A DNA stretch of 20,218 nt from a virus. The notes below the pieces were generated by a model that saw only the letters and a list, made by a program, of their open reading frames with translations, had not been told where the DNA came from and did no database searches. The stretch lies in IMG/VR virus record IMGVR_UViG_3300023440_000036, positions 1 to 20,218 of that record; one strand, 5' to 3'. Position numbers and translations under genes: made by a program. Shown here piece after piece: positions 1 through 16,848 of this stretch (position 1 is its first letter; each line of letters opens with the position of its first letter).

Positions 1-1
1 T

Positions 2-130
2 GGTGTTACAATTAAAATTAGAAATGCAACAATGGCTGATGCTACTGGAACTAAGCGCAGTTTAACTAAATGGTTAAATGCAGCTGGATATGACTCAGCT
101 GACTATGAAGAAGAATTGAACGAAGGTTAA
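2..130 (+). CDS. C-terminal end of an unknown protein (5' truncated by window)
   Basis: An open frame enters from the left edge and stops with TAA at 128-130, giving 42 residues that begin GVTIKIRNATMAD and end ELNEG. The tail is acidic (DYEEELNEG). No start codon is visible and I do not recognise the family. It is followed by 45 nt without signals and then a promoter for the next gene, so it is the last gene of its unit. Confidence 0.6.
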   Translation, partial: GVTIKIRNATMADATGTKRSLTKWLNAAGYDSADYEEELNEG

Positions 131-175
131 TTGCGTAGATTTGACTTTTTCTTGAGACCTAATTGGAATTGTTTG

Positions 176-204
176 TGTACATTTACTTCATTTTTGTGTA
201 TAAT
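176..204 (+). promoter_or_regulatory. Probable sigma70-type early promoter
   Basis: A perfect TATAAT -10 box lies at 199-204. At the canonical 17-nt spacing the -35 position holds TGTACA (176-181), a 4/6 match to TTGACA. The TTTACT hexamer typical of the other promoters here is present but displaced to 182-187, only 11 nt from the -10. The promoter at 9245-9273 has the same displaced arrangement. It would drive the broken gene starting near 235. Confidence 0.55.
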
Positions 205-234
205 TCGTTTATTGATTTTAGTCAGTAGTTTTTT

Positions 235-1318
235 ATGTACAGATTTGATTTTAACGAAGAAGATTCACGGATTGTGACGGAGATTGGGTAGTTTTAACAT
301 CTAATGGGGTTGATTATGACGACTCATAGGTTGGTATTTTCAAGCTCTTGTTTTCAGACCCTGAGAAGCGTTCTTATGAGATTTGTTACGCTCCGGCTTA
401 TCAATTCCCTTTATCTTATCCTAAGTATAAGATTGAATGTATTAAAGCTGATTTTTTTCTCCAAGCATTCCAAGGCTGCTGAGGATTCTAATTCGTTCAA
501 ATGTTGGGTTAAAGACTACGAGTGGAGAGACGATCGTAAGAGGGAAGTTTTAAAGTCTTATTTTCTCCACGCAGCTGGTAAAACCCCAAATCAATTTTTC
601 GCTAGGGATTGTGAAGTTCAACTTATCGGAACACGAGAAGCTAGGGATTTTGAAATGGTTAATTGTTTCTATGGTAAACGTGGCTCTTCTTTGAATTTAG
701 GGTTGGTTTTGAAAAAAGACAAGTTTGGTATCCCAGCTGGTACTTTAGTTATGGTTTACACGTTCGGGTTGAACTTTTTCGGTCAAGATGGATCTATTGA
801 AGTCTTGAGGGTCGGGACTTTGCGTTTTTCACAAGTCATCGTAGGTTCTTCAAAGTTGGTTAAGTATTTTTTAAGAAATTTCATGAGTATGCGAGTAGGT
901 AAACGAGACATCCCGGTTGAAATTTTGAAATTTTACTCTGATTACGACCATAATATTGGGCGGAGTATGCACGGGTTGGGGGTTTGAGTTTGTCAATTAT
1001 AGCTGTGGTTGGTTTATGAACTACTGGTTGGAATCTGGTGAAGTTAAGGGACGTCAACCTAGCAAACACAAACAAATCATGGAGCAGATGTCTAAAGGTG
1101 AATTTTTATCAATCCCAAACGCAGGTGTTAAAACATTAGTCTTACACGTAACTGACGAAATGCGTAGGTTGGATTTGGAAGTTAAAGAGCCTAAGTTGTA
1201 CGTGCCTGTTAATAAAATAGAGTTCAGTACAACCACTCAAAACGCAAGAGATAAATCAAAACCCCATATGACAGCAACGCATCTTAGAAACGCAGCTAAC
1301 ACATTCGACGCTTGGTAA
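235..1318 (+). pseudogene. Frame-broken unknown phage protein, about 360 aa when joined
   Basis: One protein appears to be spread over all three forward frames. It begins near the ATG at 235 (MYRFDFNEEDS), moves into another frame by about 270 (reading DCDGDWVVLTSNGVDYDDS) and meets an in-frame TAG at 327-329. It continues as VGIFKLLFSDPEKRSYEICY up to a T7 run at 452-458. Dropping one T there joins KADFF to SKHSKAAEDSN in the next frame. A second join is at the G5 run 978-982, where dropping one G gives HGLGFEFVNYSCGWFMNYW and leads to the TAA at 1316-1318. Two lesions are therefore +1 changes in homopolymers, plus a nonsense codon and an early shift. I do not recognise the family. The longest single open segments are 304-987 and 956-1318, but neither looks like a natural start. 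Sequencing error is possible for the homopolymer sites. Confidence 0.6.
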
Positions 1319-1404
1319 CCACTGGTGTGTTCTCGCAAAAAAACAGCTGAGCGGACAAGATGGTTTGAACCACATTGATGTATCAAACACCAACAACTTA
1401 GTTG

Positions 1405-1441
1405 AAATAAGTATAAATAAGTATAAATAAGTATAAATAAG
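1405..1441 (+). repeat. 10-bp tandem repeat (about 3.7 copies) carrying three late-promoter boxes
   Basis: The unit AAATAAGTAT is repeated perfectly at 1405-1414, 1415-1424 and 1425-1434, with a partial copy that merges into the AAGGA ribosome-binding site at 1439-1443. Each period supplies one exact TATAAATA. The array sits directly upstream of the gene starting at 1452. Confidence 0.95.
1412..1439 (+). promoter_or_regulatory. Three tandem T4-type late promoters (TATAAATA)
   Basis: Exact matches to the T4 late -10 consensus TATAAATA occur at 1412-1419, 1422-1429 and 1432-1439, phased by 10 bp. By analogy with T4, where the start site is about 6 nt past the box, the first copy would start near 1425 and include the ribosome-binding site at 1439-1443. 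The last would start near 1445 and lose it. Only the upstream boxes should therefore give a normally translated leader. The same box precedes the capsid gene at 15903. Confidence 0.7.
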
Positions 1442-1451
1442 GATGATAAAT

Positions 1452-2882
1452 ATGAATTTTAAAGAGTTCTTGAGAGACGATTGTGATATGCTACACGAAG
1501 CTGTTAAAGTAACAGATGTTGATTCGGCTGTAGTTGCGTTGTTTGGCAAACAACCAAGTGAGGTTAACGATGATGAGTTGAAGTTTGCTGAATATATGTT
1601 CGGTATTGATTACTTCAAACAACACGCTCGTAAGAAAATAACGTCTGTTAGCGACGTGGAGCTGTTATACAAAGCGTTTTTCGGTAAAACATATAAAAAG
1701 AGCGTTGTTTCAGATAAAGAACTGGCTAAATTATTAAAGAAAACTGTCAAATACCGGTTATCAATTTTTAAATTAGACGATACGTACAAACTAACAAACG
1801 AAGATATTGATTATTTGATACGAACTAACCGCGAATATATAGACGACCAGTTTGAACTGAAAGGAATATCCGGAAGTTTCCTACTGAGCGCGATGCTTAT
1901 GTATGGTTTGTTTACTAAAAAAAGATCAACATTGCGGGTTAAGGGTACTAAAACAAAAGAATGTCGACTTGAGATTGCAAGCGGTGCAACGGCGGTTACG
2001 GTCCTGAAAAGAAAAAATGAAACTGATGTATTGTATACGCTCGACGATTCGAATTCTTGGTGGAGCTTTAGTGTGCAAATAGCTGAAGCAATATTGTCAC
2101 GCGATGACGCCTTCGAATATCTCAAAAGGCAAACGGGTGGTGAGCTTGCGGTATTGACTTTTGATGAGTTTGAATCAGAAGTTGAGAAAAAATTCAAACA
2201 TTACGATTTTTTCAAAGGTACAGATTTTATAACTTATGTTTACAGCGAATACGTTTCCTACTCAAAAACAGATTTTTATTCAATCATTAGCTTTATGGAC
2301 AACGCGTACGATCTTTATGCAGGCGGCACTTTCGTAGTTGGCGATAAATTTACATTTGCTGAAGTCCCCAGCGGTCTAACTGGCAGAATGTTAGGTAAAT
2401 ATATGTTGAACACAGCTAAACGTTTAGTAGCTTTAGGTCGTTTAAAACGTTTAAAGGTTAACGGAGTTAATGTTTACGTTTTGACTTCAGACGCTGATGT
2501 TGAACAAAAGGAGAAAAGACAAAAACTTCGTGAGTTTGATAAGCTAGCTAAGGAAATTTTCTGGGAGTTTCCTAGATCTGCTGAACAAGAGGCCATGGAT
2601 AAAGTTGGTGTGACTGCAGAACCTAACGATAACCGGGTTGTTATTTGGGTTAGATACGCTATGGCTGGATTCCGAGATAAAGATTCTAACGGAAGCCCAA
2701 CTGATGCGTTTGACCGACGTTTAGCAGCTAGTGAGAAGGAATATTATGATTTAGCTAAAGAACTTTCATCAAATCATGATGTAAATGTTGTTATCCGCAG
2801 TGTTTCACCGTTTGGAGGTAATCCAGATATGTTAGCTGAGAACACTTCTAGTTCTAATTTTACTTCTTTTCTAAATGGTTAA
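1452..2882 (+). CDS. Putative internal head/virion protein with T4-like capsid-targeting leader
   Basis: This encodes 476 aa. ATG 1452 is chosen over ATG 1443 because AAGGA at 1439-1443 is then 8 nt upstream and does not overlap the start. The N-terminus MNFKEFLRDDCDMLHEA resembles the leader of T4 internal head proteins (MKTYQEFIAEA), which ends at an L/I-x-E cleavage site for the gp21 protease. Here L14-H15-E16|A17 would fit. The body is soluble, mixed alpha/beta and lysine-rich, with a tryptophan pair in NSWWSFSV. I find no recognisable catalytic motif, and an ADP-ribosyltransferase role like T4 Alt cannot be shown. Three late-promoter boxes directly upstream and a strong terminator downstream support a late, single-gene virion transcript. 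The gene itself is certain; the packaged-protein role is an inference from leader plus promoter. Confidence 0.75.
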   Translation: MNFKEFLRDDCDMLHEAVKVTDVDSAVVALFGKQPSEVNDDELKFAEYMFGIDYFKQHARKKITSVSDVELLYKAFFGKTYKKSVVSDKELAKLLKKTVKYRLSIFKLDDTYKLTNEDIDYLIRTNREYIDDQFELKGISGSFLLSAMLMYGLFTKKRSTLRVKGTKTKECRLEIASGATAVTVLKRKNETDVLYTLDDSNSWWSFSVQIAEAILSRDDAFEYLKRQTGGELAVLTFDEFESEVEKKFKHYDFFKGTDFITYVYSEYVSYSKTDFYSIISFMDNAYDLYAGGTFVVGDKFTFAEVPSGLTGRMLGKYMLNTAKRLVALGRLKRLKVNGVNVYVLTSDADVEQKEKRQKLREFDKLAKEIFWEFPRSAEQEAMDKVGVTAEPNDNRVVIWVRYAMAGFRDKDSNGSPTDAFDRRLAASEKEYYDLAKELSSNHDVNVVIRSVSPFGGNPDMLAENTSSSNFTSFLNG

Positions 2883-2904
2883 TTGATAGTTATATTGTTG
2901 TTTT

Positions 2905-2939
2905 AAACCCCAAAGTAGCAATGCTTTGTGGTTTTTTTT
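2905..2939 (+). terminator. Rho-independent terminator
   Basis: An 11-bp stem with one mismatch pairs AAACCCCAAAG (2905-2915) with CTTTGTGGTTT (2924-2934). It has an 8-nt loop and runs into Ts up to 2939. It closes the gene ending at 2882. Confidence 0.85.
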
Positions 2940-2967
2940 ATGTGTTACATGTGCAAAACGAACTTGA

Positions 2968-2990
2968 TTAACCGGTTAACCGGTTAACCG
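2968..2990 (+). repeat. Palindromic 8-bp tandem repeat abutting a promoter
   Basis: The unit TTAACCGG is present 2.9 times (2968-2975, 2976-2983, 2984-2990). Because TTAACCGG tiled head to tail is self-complementary, it forms overlapping inverted repeats. It ends exactly where the -35 element begins (2991), the position of an activator or operator site. Confidence 0.8.
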
Positions 2991-3052: not shown

Positions 3053-3350
3053 ATGAAAGTAATATTGATGACCAAACTGCAACTGAACAAAACTGAACAA
3101 AACTGAACAAAACTGAACAAAACTGAACAAAACTGAACAGCTCATAAACGCTTTGGATGAATTTCAAATTGAGTTTGTGGAATCAGATAGTGAAATTACA
3201 GTTCAAAAAGACCAAACTACTCATTTAGTAGCTGATGCTGGTAGGGTTAAAAATTTAATAGAACAACTCAGAATGAACGATTTGTTCGACTTGAACGTCA
3301 TGGTAGACACAGGAACTAAAGAAATGGAATTTATAATCGACGAAATTTGA
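3053..3350 (+). pseudogene. Small ORF disrupted by an expanded 10-bp repeat
   Basis: Starting at ATG 3053, behind AAGAG and a good promoter, translation gives MKVILMTKLQLNKTEQN and stops at TGA 3104-3106 inside a 10-bp tandem array. Past the array the frame continues LNKTEQLINALDEFQIEFVE and on to TGA 3348-3350. Removing four of the six array copies (40 nt) joins both parts into one open frame of about 85 aa: the two copies left encode LNKTEQ only once. The joined product is acidic and helical; I do not recognise it. As it stands only a short peptide, or an internal start such as TTG 3153, could be made. It may be a dead gene, or one whose reading depends on copy number. Confidence 0.65.
3081..3139 (+). 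repeat. 10-bp tandem repeat, 5.9 copies, inside a gene start
   Basis: AACTGAACAA is repeated perfectly at 3081, 3091, 3101, 3111 and 3121, with a nine-base partial copy at 3131-3139. Since 10 is not a multiple of 3, each unit gained or lost changes the frame. Any three consecutive copies also place a TGA in frame. Confidence 0.95.
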
Positions 3351-3369
3351 AGAAAACGGAAATTTACTG

Positions 3370-7168: not shown

Positions 7169-7423
7169 ATGTTCAAAGATTTGGGTTTGTATTTTGGAGA
7201 CGTAGCAGTTAGCTACACATCAGGGGAAGCTGCGGTTATGTATTTAGCTGGAATTCTATCTGGGTTGATTTTTGGTTTCGTGATTGGACACGTTGTAGGT
7301 GTTAAACGAACCAAATTACAAAATGTTAATTTTGACAAAAACATGAAAGAGCTCAAAGAGTTGCGTTCTATGCGTTCTAAATTTTCATGGGTTGATGATG
7401 TGTTAGAAGTACAAGGCCGTTAA
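7169..7423 (+). CDS. Small membrane protein, unknown
   Basis: This encodes 84 aa. ATG 7169 has AAAGGAG ending at 7162; the in-frame ATG 7163 is too close to it. The central helix AAVMYLAGILSGLIFGFVIG (about res. 18-38) is a clear glycine-rich transmembrane segment. It is followed by a basic, helical tail (VKRTKLQ ... MKELKELRSMRSKF) that should face the cytoplasm. It stands alone behind its own early promoter. I recognise no family; a role at the host membrane early in infection is a guess from position only. Confidence 0.7.
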   Translation: MFKDLGLYFGDVAVSYTSGEAAVMYLAGILSGLIFGFVIGHVVGVKRTKLQNVNFDKNMKELKELRSMRSKFSWVDDVLEVQGR

Positions 7424-7436
7424 AAAAAATGAACTG

Positions 7437-7469
7437 TTTACTTTTGTTCATTTTAAGCAAACTGATAAA
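7437..7469 (+). promoter_or_regulatory. Early-promoter -35 with its -10 region replaced by a repeat
   Basis: GTTTACTTTTGTTCATTTTA at 7436-7455 matches the 5' half of the early promoters, but no TATAAT follows at 17 nt. Instead an 8-bp repeat begins at 7459, each unit offering GATAAA (first at 7464-7469, 4/6 to TATAAT, spacer 21 nt). It would be the promoter of the sliding-clamp gene, with reduced or altered strength. Confidence 0.5.
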
Positions 7470-7497
7470 CTGATAAACTGATAAACTGATAAACTGA
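7459..7497 (+). repeat. 8-bp tandem repeat, 4.9 copies, over the clamp promoter
   Basis: AAACTGAT is repeated perfectly at 7459, 7467, 7475 and 7483, with AAACTGA at 7491-7497. It lies exactly where the -10 element and start site of the clamp promoter are expected. Confidence 0.95.
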
Positions 7498-9717: not shown

Positions 9718-9891
9718 GTATCGGAGTTGTATAAATAACAACGTATTTTATACATTTCGATTGATTTTGACGAAGAAAGTCTAATGGACTATAAACATTT
9801 CGAATTGGGCTCATATTGTTGAGTTCAAAAATTTAAAAAGCGAAGCACGAAGACTATAGTTTCTGAGTGCAAATATAAGGAAGAACAAAAG
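9718..9891 (+). other. Long leader of the gp32 gene with a decayed coding remnant
   Basis: This leader of about 170 nt separates the promoter from gp32. One frame reads ISIDFDEESLMDYKHFELGS, then TGA 9821-9823, then VQKFKKRSTKTIVSECKY up to the gp32 start. Its first part resembles, at DNA level, the start of the broken gene at 235 (GATTTTAACGAAGAAGATTC against GATTTTGACGAAGAAAGTC). It may be a gene remnant. In T4 the gp32 leader also binds gp32 for autoregulation; I see no clear pseudoknot here. Confidence 0.4.
9730..9737 (+). promoter_or_regulatory. T4-type late promoter box
   Basis: An exact TATAAATA lies 18 nt downstream of the early -10 box, so gp32 could be expressed both early and late, as in T4. 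Confidence 0.55.
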
Positions 9892-10848
9892 ATGACAGAT
9901 TTTAACACGGTACAAGGTGCAGATGCGTTTAACTTTTCAGCTATGAAAGCTGAGATTGGAAAGGACCCGTTTGCAACCCACAAAACTAGTTACTCCCGTG
10001 ACGAACGATTTTACATGTTGCAGAAAGATAAAGAAGGCAACGGAGCTGCCTTGATTCGGTTTTTGCCAGATTCAGAGCGTGGTATGTTACAACGGATGTT
10101 TAAAATTGGCACTACGGTTATTAAAAATGGTAAGAAACGGTTTGTGTCTGAATTTTCACCATCTACTATTAACCAACCTGATCCTTTTCAAGAAAAATGG
10201 CAAGATTTGTGGAATAGCGGAGAAAAAGAGACCGCTAAGATTTTTTCGCGAGGTGTTCGTTTTGTTAGTAATATTAAAATTCTAAAAGACCCATCCAATC
10301 CAGAAAACGAAGGTAAGATTTTCTTATATGAAATGTCTGGTTCTATGAAGGATAAATTACAAGCTGCGATTGACCCAAGCGAGCAAGATCGTTCGTTAGG
10401 GGCTAAACCTAAGGAGTTGTTCAACCCGCTGCAAGGTAATTCTTTCCGCCTAGTTGCTAAGATTGGTGCTAATAAACAAATCAACTACGATTCTTCTGAA
10501 GTTTTAAACGATATTTCTTCAATTTACAACTCGGTTGATGAAGCGCTAACGGATATTAAAGAAAACACCCACAAGCTGAGCGGTTTGATAAAACCCGAAT
10601 CTTTCATGACTTACGAAGAACTTAAGAAGAAGATGGCTTGGGTTACTTTCGAAGACGCGCAAACTCAACTGTTAACAGCCCAAGTTTCAGAACCCGTTCA
10701 AGCTGTTCAAGCTGTTCAAGCTGTTCAAGAAGTTCAAGCTGTTCACGAAGTTCAAGAAGTTCAAGCTGTTCAAGAACCTGCTAAACCAACCAAAGAAGAA
10801 TCTAATAATGATGTTTCTTTAGATTCTCTATTGTCTGGTTTAGTTTAA
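9892..10848 (+). CDS. 32: Single-stranded DNA-binding protein (T4 gp32-like)
   Basis: This encodes 318 aa (T4 gp32 is 301), from ATG 9892 with AAGGAAG at 9877-9883. GNGAALIRFLPD (res. 49-60) matches gp32 GNGQAVIRFLP, and ILKDPSNPENEGKIF (130-144) matches VVKDPAAPENEGKVF, both in the OB-fold core. The zinc-binding Cys/His cluster of T4 gp32 is missing; the stretch STINQPDPFQEKWQDLWNSG fills that place. A repetitive linker of nine three-residue VQA/VQE-type units (res. 269-295) precedes the acidic C-terminus ESNNDVSLDSLLSGLV, the part that recruits partner replication proteins in T4. It coats ssDNA during replication and recombination. RNase H and primase follow downstream. Expression is likely early and late, with a terminator right after. 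Confidence 0.9.
   Translation: MTDFNTVQGADAFNFSAMKAEIGKDPFATHKTSYSRDERFYMLQKDKEGNGAALIRFLPDSERGMLQRMFKIGTTVIKNGKKRFVSEFSPSTINQPDPFQEKWQDLWNSGEKETAKIFSRGVRFVSNIKILKDPSNPENEGKIFLYEMSGSMKDKLQAAIDPSEQDRSLGAKPKELFNPLQGNSFRLVAKIGANKQINYDSSEVLNDISSIYNSVDEALTDIKENTHKLSGLIKPESFMTYEELKKKMAWVTFEDAQTQLLTAQVSEPVQAVQAVQAVQEVQAVHEVQEVQAVQEPAKPTKEESNNDVSLDSLLSGLV
10696..10776 (+). repeat. 9-bp in-frame tandem repeat, 9 units, in the gp32 linker
   Basis: Nine units of GTTCAAGCT/GTTCAAGAA type (one GTTCACGAA) encode VQA VQA VQA VQE VQA VHE VQE VQA VQE. The unit length is a multiple of 3, so the gene stays open. Confidence 0.95.
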
Positions 10849-12356: not shown

Positions 12357-13466
12357 ATGGGATTAGTTTCGGTAGATGTTAAGTATTTCAAGATGGCCGT
12401 TGGTTTGGAACGAATTGGTAGGGAGACTACCGAAGATGTCCAAGCCAAGTGTCCAGTTTGTGGAGATTCTAAAACTAAAACAAGTGCCAAACGTTTGCAT
12501 TTGTACAATAAAGGAACTGTAACCAACGTCAATTGTTTCAACGGCGACTGTCCAGTTCACAACAAAACAGTTTATGGGTTCTTGAACGAGTTTTTCCCAA
12601 ATTTAATAAGTCAATATAAACGAGAAACTTTCCAAAACACGCTAACTGAGCTTTCAAACGGCGGAGATGTGTTTGCATCTTTTAAAAAAACTACAAAAAC
12701 TACAAAAACTACAAAAACTACAAAAACTACAAAAACTACAAATAAACACGAAACGGAACCCACGTCTGAACCAAAAGATAGTTTATTGGATAGTTGGGAA
12801 CCTAATGATGTATTTTTACAGATACCTAAGCCACCAGTTCAAGTTCAAGATTTAACCATGTACATGCAACCGATCGAAGAATCTAAAACTGGGATGGATT
12901 ATTTACTAAACCGAGGAATTGAACCAAATACAAACTTCGGAAAGTGGTTCTTCGGAGATAGAGATTTGAAAATAGGGGAAACTTTGTATAGAATAACCGA
13001 TTCTGTAGTAGTTCCTTTGTATTATAAAGACGTGATGTATGGTTTTTACTCAAGAAGTACAGAAACTAAAAACTTCACAACTTACATGAACCACACGAAC
13101 ATCGGGTATAAAATTTTCAACTGGTTCAACGTCGATTTAGAAGAGCCTGTTTATATTTTCGAAGGAGTTTTTGACGCGATTGCTTCAGGGTTGTCGAACT
13201 CGATAGCTTTATTAGGAGCTAAACTTCCAGATGAAAGACTCAAAGAAATCAAAAAACCTATATTCTGCTTAGATAACGATAGGACTGGAATCATCAACTC
13301 TATACAGTATGCTAAAAAAGGACATAGCATATTTATACAACCGAAACAATTCAAAGAAAAAGACATGAATGAATTGATGTTGAATTATGGTTCTGTTTGT
13401 GGTTTGGTTAAGAATAATATAAAATGTGGAATTATAGCTGAGGTTGAACTAACATCTAGGTTGTGA
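12357..13466 (+). CDS. 61: DNA primase, DnaG/T4 gp61 type
   Basis: This encodes 369 aa from ATG 12357, with AAAGAG upstream. The N-terminal zinc-binding site is C32-x2-C35 ... C60-x4-C65-x2-H68 (CPVCGDSKTK; NCFNGDCPVH). A low-complexity linker of six KTT units follows (res. 111-128). The C-terminal half has the Toprim acids: Glu269 in VYIFEGVFDAIASG and Asp306-x-Asp308 in FCLDNDRTG. It synthesises the RNA primers of the lagging strand. It lies 48 nt after the RNase H gene, so primer maker and primer remover are probably co-transcribed. T4 gp61 is 342 aa, so the length is normal apart from the repeat. No gp41 helicase is adjacent. Confidence 0.9.
   Translation: MGLVSVDVKYFKMAVGLERIGRETTEDVQAKCPVCGDSKTKTSAKRLHLYNKGTVTNVNCFNGDCPVHNKTVYGFLNEFFPNLISQYKRETFQNTLTELSNGGDVFASFKKTTKTTKTTKTTKTTKTTNKHETEPTSEPKDSLLDSWEPNDVFLQIPKPPVQVQDLTMYMQPIEESKTGMDYLLNRGIEPNTNFGKWFFGDRDLKIGETLYRITDSVVVPLYYKDVMYGFYSRSTETKNFTTYMNHTNIGYKIFNWFNVDLEEPVYIFEGVFDAIASGLSNSIALLGAKLPDERLKEIKKPIFCLDNDRTGIINSIQYAKKGHSIFIQPKQFKEKDMNELMLNYGSVCGLVKNNIKCGIIAEVELTSRL
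12687..12740 (+). repeat. 9-bp in-frame tandem repeat, 6 copies, in the primase linker
   Basis: AAAACTACA is repeated six times, perfectly, encoding (KTT)6. It lies between the zinc domain and the catalytic core, where length change is tolerated. Confidence 0.95.
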
Positions 13467-15902: not shown

Positions 15903-15910
15903 TATAAATA
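15903..15910 (+). promoter_or_regulatory. T4-type late promoter of the capsid gene
   Basis: An exact TATAAATA lies 42 nt before the capsid ATG. The predicted start near 15916 leaves a leader of about 36 nt with the AGGAA ribosome-binding site. No early-type -35 is nearby. Confidence 0.8.
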
Positions 15911-15951
15911 CATAATAAAACATGTATTTTATATACACGACGAGGAAATCA

Positions 15952-16848
15952 ATGGTTAAAATTTTAGAAAACACAGTAGGACCTGCTGACATTAACATAG
16001 CTACTACTGACGAAAACTTGACGGTTGAACAGATGTTTCAGCAAGTTAAGTTACCTTCTTTAGGACGTGAGATTTTCTCAGTTCAACAAATGCACGGACC
16101 CACAGCCGCTTTGTTCAACATTAGAAACAGAGTTGCTCAACCCGGTAACCCAATAACTTTAACAAACGCTAACGATTTTCAATTAATTAGAAGTGAAGTC
16201 GCTTGTTTCCCAAGTGTAGCTATTTCAACCGGAATCACTCAAGAGATGACTCAGGATTTGAAATCCCAGTACGGAATGGAAGCTAATAAAATAATCGGTT
16301 CTTTGTTGAGAGGTTTGGCAAACGATGATGAAAATGCAAACACGTTGGCTTTTTTAAATGCTAATTCTTTAAACGGTCCTAGTTTAACATTATCTCCAAC
16401 AGTTAGAGCTAATGCAGAATTGACTTTGTTCACGGTGACTCAACGTGTTCAGGAGTTAGTTTTGAAAATGAACTCTTTGCATTTGGTAACGTTTGACGCA
16501 TTTGCAGTTTTGCCGGCGAGAGAATTGGCTGGGGTTATGGCTTTAGCTAATTACGCCCAAGGTGAAGTTCGAGAAAGCAATTCTAGTCTTTACGTAGCTA
16601 AAATTGGTAAAACTAAGTTTTACTTAAATCCAGACCCTTTGAGTACAACAGCTTATGTGGGTCTATTAGACCCTTTGAATATGAGCAAATCAAGCGCTGT
16701 TTTCTCACCTTATGAAGAAACTGTAGTTAACGGAGTTAATCCAGACACGGGTGCCGAACATTACCACATTTACAACCGTTACGCAATCGCAGTATCTCCT
16801 CTTCATAGACTAAACGAAGAATTGCTACATATGTTTAATATAGTATAA
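15952..16848 (+). CDS. Small gp23-family (HK97-fold) capsid protein
   Basis: This encodes 298 aa. ATG 15952 has CGAGGAAA upstream; ATG 15922 has no ribosome-binding site. Similarity to T4 gp23 runs along the chain. The N-arm LGREIFSVQQMHGPTAALFN resembles gp23 IFDICGVQPMNSPTGQVFALR. ITQEMTQDLKSQYGMEANKI resembles the gp23 SIELAQDLRAVHGMDADAEL region. KTKFYLNPDPLSTTAYVGLL ... AVFSPYEE and YNRYAIAVSPL resemble the end of the P domain (YYAPYV ... FKTRYGI). It is far shorter than gp23 (521 aa) or gp24 (427 aa). It lacks the long N-terminal scaffold-cleaved arm and the insertion domain. It may be the true major capsid protein of a distant lineage, or a paralogue. The single late promoter supports abundant late expression. 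Its stop codon lies in an 11-bp repeat. Confidence 0.78.
   Translation: MVKILENTVGPADINIATTDENLTVEQMFQQVKLPSLGREIFSVQQMHGPTAALFNIRNRVAQPGNPITLTNANDFQLIRSEVACFPSVAISTGITQEMTQDLKSQYGMEANKIIGSLLRGLANDDENANTLAFLNANSLNGPSLTLSPTVRANAELTLFTVTQRVQELVLKMNSLHLVTFDAFAVLPARELAGVMALANYAQGEVRESNSSLYVAKIGKTKFYLNPDPLSTTAYVGLLDPLNMSKSSAVFSPYEETVVNGVNPDTGAEHYHIYNRYAIAVSPLHRLNEELLHMFNIV

Follow-up and report, generated by a model that had tools for sequence, protein, structure and literature searches.

A tripled T4-type late promoter box, probably multiplied by replication slippage, in front of a gene without known relatives in a Vibrio phage-like virus fragment

Results

The locus and its relatives

The window, by which we mean the whole 20,218-base virus record analysed here, is a fragment of a T4-like phage related to the Vibrio phages Va1 and TDDLMA. 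It codes for a partition protein, a sliding clamp (phrog_223), a gp32-like protein, a 5'-3' exonuclease, a primase, a RecB-like nuclease, a gp23-type capsid protein and a helicase, and its gene order is matched in Vibrio phage VB_VaC_TDDLMA. The late sigma factor gp55 is itself absent from the window, which is a fragment. No close DNA relatives were found in the phage collection. A sister contig in IMG/VR (G001) is ~85% identical across much of the window and lacks window positions 1-2980; no relative carrying the locus at 1405 was found in the phage collection or IMG/VR. Just upstream of this locus (304-1400) lies a homing-endonuclease-like gene (phrog_3339/559) that is split across several frames and looks degenerate.

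Table 1 Features of the window
Feature	Coordinates	Strand	Remarks
Perfect 10-bp tandem array, unit AAATAAGTAT	1405..1441	+	3.7 copies, 100% (TRF)
Late promoter box 1, TATAAATA	1412..1419	+	RNA start predicted at 1425; box ends 32 nt ahead of ATG 1452
Late promoter box 2, TATAAATA	1422..1429	+	RNA start predicted at 1435; box ends 22 nt ahead of ATG 1452
Late promoter box 3, TATAAATA	1432..1439	+	RNA start predicted at 1445; box ends 12 nt ahead of ATG 1452
Shine-Dalgarno AAGGA	1439..1443	+	first bases come from the last array unit
ORF of 476 aa, MNFKEFLRDDCDMLHEA...	1452..2882	+	family without known relatives; alternative ATG 1443 overlaps the Shine-Dalgarno
Likely intrinsic terminator, hairpin and T-run	2905..2940	+	-11.8 kcal/mol, z -2.9
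Array AACTGAACAA, 10-bp unit, x5.9	3081..3139	+	inside small gene 3053-3353 (ATG 3053); frame broken, stop at codon 18
TATAAATA upstream of gp32-like gene	9730..9737	+	154 nt upstream; sister phage has TATAAATA at 7289, near the corresponding position
In-frame array AAAAACTAC, x6.3, in primase gene	12686..12742	+	~2 copies in sister phage
Single late box ahead of gp23/gp24-like capsid gene	15903..15910	+	ORF 15922-16848, likely ATG 15952
Array AGTATAAAAAC, x6.1, with near-boxes TATAAAAA	16842..16908	+	from capsid-gene stop codon to SD and ATG 16910 of next gene

Makeup and geometry of the array

The earlier note had described three exact T4 late promoter boxes at 10-bp steps, fused directly to a ribosome-binding site, and both observations are confirmed (Table 1). 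The array passes straight into TAAGGA, which is followed by in-frame ATGs at 1443 and 1452. Since AAGGA overlaps the ATG at 1443 and lies 8 bases ahead of that at 1452, the latter is the likely start. The window as a whole contains six copies of TATAAATA against 1.7 expected, and none of the shuffles gave six. TRF reports exact head-to-tail units with a flanking partial unit, a structure of the slippage type. The direct repeat AAATAAG flanks TAT on both sides at this site, which would be sufficient for slippage.

The T4 late box occupies positions -13 to -6 (PMC1524935), and by this rule the predicted starts lie 13 bases beyond the first base of each box. RNAs from boxes 1 and 2 are predicted to contain the Shine-Dalgarno sequence, that from box 3 to begin behind it. 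The suggestion that copy number could shift the start relative to the ribosome-binding site is thus right in its geometry, but the innermost of the three predicted starts would leave the message without a Shine-Dalgarno.

Boxes 10 bp apart fall within a single polymerase footprint, so they should exclude one another or compete, rather than behave as independent promoters. The earlier note had also placed the boxes on the same face of the helix. The arithmetic is correct for 10 bp, but it says little for boxes in one footprint; in other phages any step from 8 to 14 bp is common, 12 bp being the most frequent, and we have dropped the argument.

The gene behind the array

No homologue of the protein encoded at 1452 was found in PHROGs, Pfam, PDB sequences, a tblastn search against phages or an IMG/VR scan. 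AlphaFold, run without an alignment, gave a pLDDT of 38 and no confident fold. The N-terminus MNFKEFLRDDCDMLHEA resembles the capsid targeting sequences of T4-type phages, and MNFKEFLRDDCDMLHE|A looks by eye like a targeting N-terminus with a prohead protease site. Three TDDLMA genes that lie behind late boxes have similar N-termini (MKFKQFLAESDEMLES, MKFTEYLNE and MKFRDHL). In T4 the N-terminal targeting peptides of internal proteins are 10-20 residues long (PMC5694885). A reasonable guess is that the product is an internal head protein injected with the DNA or otherwise delivered; the earlier label of putative head protein has this targeting-like N-terminus as its sole basis, homology searches having returned nothing. 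The terminator downstream of the gene, which was not in the list from a consensus scan, is likely to close the transcription unit.

Late boxes in the wider clade

The complete genome of TDDLMA shows how TATAAATA is placed in this relative. It lies upstream of 26 of the 254 gene starts, where the mean for 56 words of the same letters is 4.0, and ranks first among them, although its genome-wide count is ordinary (42 versus 35.6). The genes that it precedes include those for major head, scaffold, portal, neck, tail tube, sheath and baseplate proteins. Box and ATG are 16-37 nt apart in 27 of the 29 cases, and the median gap is 28 nt; boxes 1 and 2 of the array fall within this range and box 3 below its minimum. 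TDDLMA also encodes a late-sigma-like factor (phrog_234, 2.6e-16). The single box ahead of the capsid gene in the window is conserved in the sister phage, and the homologous TDDLMA gene at 150945 is again preceded by a box.

Multiplied boxes are found elsewhere. When IMG/VR was scanned for triple boxes spaced 10 bp apart, 10 contigs were found, one of which has six copies before a Shine-Dalgarno and ATG. With looser steps, triple TATAAATA at most 45 nt before a Shine-Dalgarno and ATG occurred 27 times in sense and 3 times in antisense orientation among the 133 matches listed; these matches include near-duplicates, and all such multi-box counts are examples, neither rates nor a census. Among the matches listed, pairs of boxes before a Shine-Dalgarno and ATG have steps of 8-14 bp in 41 of 78 cases, compared with ~18 if steps were uniform, and the peak is at 12. 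Judged by their N-termini only, many of the genes behind multiplied boxes resemble those for tail sheath, tail tube, capsid or prohead proteins. Contigs with doubled or tripled TATAAATA at 9-12-bp steps before virion-like genes include L102, L111, L050, L105, L080, L141, L034 and L060. Ahead of its tail tube gene TDDLMA itself carries a pair of boxes spaced 9 bp apart (TATAAATAATATAAATAAG), which phiKT1024 and phiTY18, at 91% identity, keep without change. A triple array in Campylobacter phage CP21 was rejected as a virion-gene precedent, as it sits among transposase ORFs (IS607 family). The open papers searched contained no description of tandem late promoters and none of short tandem repeats tied to late genes.

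Other short arrays in the window and its sister phage

The array at 1405 is one of eight perfect arrays (7-12-bp units, at least 2.5 copies) in the window, a setting that the earlier note had missed; 60 dinucleotide shuffles gave a mean of 0.017. TDDLMA has four such arrays in 196 kb, against eight in the 20 kb of the window. Where four window arrays have 5.9, 6.3, 2.8 and 6.1 copies, the sister phage holds one or two; reciprocally, the window is single-copy where three arrays of the sister phage have 2.8, 2.6 and 3.0. Each of the two lineages thus gains arrays of its own, and does so often. The private arrays of the sister phage (L154/L155) lie at contig positions 10275-10306, 12840-12868, 14229-14267 and 4327-4357, the window being single-copy at the three compared.

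Array growth in this region can proceed without selection, as two cases show: one array breaks a gene and another has made near-boxes from a stop-codon region. The broken gene, at 3053, has an intact counterpart of 84 aa in the sister phage, with ~2 copies of the unit. The array behind the capsid gene is present in about one copy in the sister phage; its six near-boxes TATAAAAA arose from the stop-codon region, and in both the sister phage and TDDLMA the matching region is free of late boxes.

Further arrays touch other kinds of sequence. Repeats of 9 bp that keep the reading frame extend two protein segments: a TTK-rich stretch in the primase (12686-12742), which is shorter in the sister phage, and, in the gp32-like protein, a linker rich in VQ/AVQ (10696-10774). 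Just upstream of the sliding clamp gene, AAACTGAT x4.9 (7459-7497) occupies the expected -10 position of an early promoter (TTTACT at ~7439), which this array may have altered or abolished.

Discussion

The T4 late box is read by gp55 together with gp33 and the clamp (PMC2988020). Assignment of the array at 1405 to this promoter type is well supported by its letters and its setting: the earlier claim of T4-type late boxes ahead of a ribosome-binding site is borne out by a clade that uses TATAAATA before virion genes. The same note knew of no described phage promoter multiplied in this way, but that the multiplication is exceptional is not supported, given the seven further arrays in the window and the multiplied TATAAATA before virion-like genes of many T4-like contigs and before the Vibrio tail tube gene. 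The kind of promoter is known and multiplied boxes are present in other phages, so the layout is not unique.

We propose that the array is the late promoter of the 1452 gene, in which the number of boxes was recently raised to three by replication slippage; we consider this the probable reading, and slippage the most likely cause of the tripling. A gp55-like sigma factor and the sliding clamp would read the TATAAATA boxes upstream of the gene. Slippage between the two short AAATAAG repeats that flank TAT would have added boxes in a phage lineage that seems prone to frequent expansion and contraction of short tandem arrays. Boxes 1 and 2, whose spacing from the start codon is normal, would give messages containing the Shine-Dalgarno sequence, and box 3 alone would start RNA behind it and would probably be unproductive. 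If only the box that touches the Shine-Dalgarno were ancestral, the added copies would have brought a box to a workable distance. It is conceivable, though we consider it a rather long shot, that slippage serves as a promoter-building device, with 10-bp units moving late starts upstream step by step from unproductive to productive positions, so that copy number would act as a heritable and reversible dial on a virion gene.

Against the slippage account stand the conservation of the tail-tube pair at 91% identity and the recurrence of short-step tandem late boxes before virion-like genes elsewhere. Because of this recurrence and the one conserved pair, multiplied boxes may be selected and not merely tolerated. 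Selection at 1405 itself would mean that several boxes in one footprint better capture the clamp-tethered polymerase and that copy number tunes virion-gene output, an alternative that we judge unlikely. The sense bias of triple boxes and the clustering of pair steps, both among the matches listed, are consistent with it, as are the many downstream genes resembling head, tail tube and sheath genes, the retention of TATAAATAATATAAATAAG between TDDLMA and phiKT1024/phiTY18, and the near-identical triple arrays before two diverged related proteins (L102 and L111). However, the IMG/VR figures cover the matches listed and are not a census, and at 1405 the exact copies and the seven other arrays, some of them damaging or outside promoters, point to recent slippage.

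Another alternative is that there is no promoter at all. An AT-rich spacer before the ribosome-binding site might have been expanded by slippage, with TATAAATA accidental and the gene read from an upstream promoter, much as the array behind the capsid gene generated near-boxes where the sister phage and TDDLMA have no late box. We regard this as improbable, for the unit at 1405 includes the exact consensus, correctly oriented and correctly spaced relative to a Shine-Dalgarno and ATG, the word marks late genes of the clade, and a likely terminator follows the gene, as expected for a separate unit. Nor do we give much weight to an assembly or sequencing artefact, which would account for an array seen in one record only, beside a broken endonuclease frame and a broken gene at 3053. 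No window array exceeds 81 bases, a length that a single short read can contain; large genes (primase, gp32, a helicase of 907 aa) are intact whether they carry arrays or not; and the sister phage, a separate record, has arrays of its own. An artefact is accordingly very improbable.

Taken alone, the array is a modest example in which repeat slippage has probably altered a promoter of known type. Two by-products are useful. Late boxes in twos or threes, 8-14 bp apart, are a recurrent layout ahead of virion-like genes in T4-like phages. In the sister pair, 8-13-bp arrays turn over fast and reciprocally. With both in hand, the effect of late-box number becomes a simple question to test.

Among known systems, the locus is most readily compared with the T4-type late promoter, dependent on gp55, gp33 and gp45. 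It shares the exact consensus, an AT-rich downstream segment, no need of a -35 element, a position before a gene that is likely late, and a clade that has a late-sigma-like factor and clamp; it differs in that its boxes, three in number and all exact, form a 10-bp array that runs into the Shine-Dalgarno, with the innermost box too close to the start codon. The doubled tail-tube box of Vibrio phages TDDLMA, Va1, phiKT1024 and phiTY18, the nearest complete relatives, is likewise composed of head-to-tail TATAAATA, at 29 and 20 nt before the ATG, but is a conserved pair with a 9-bp step. Also comparable are IMG/VR arrays of at least three boxes at 9-11-bp steps directly before Shine-Dalgarno and ATG (L028, with six boxes, L050, L085, L102/L111 and L105), several with the innermost box 9-16 nt from the ATG, although they belong to other phages and to genes without homology to that at 1452. 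The short arrays of the window and its sister phage share with the array at 1405 perfect 8-11-bp units in ~3-6 copies that are single or double in the other phage; among them, the one at 1405 alone consists of exact late promoter boxes.
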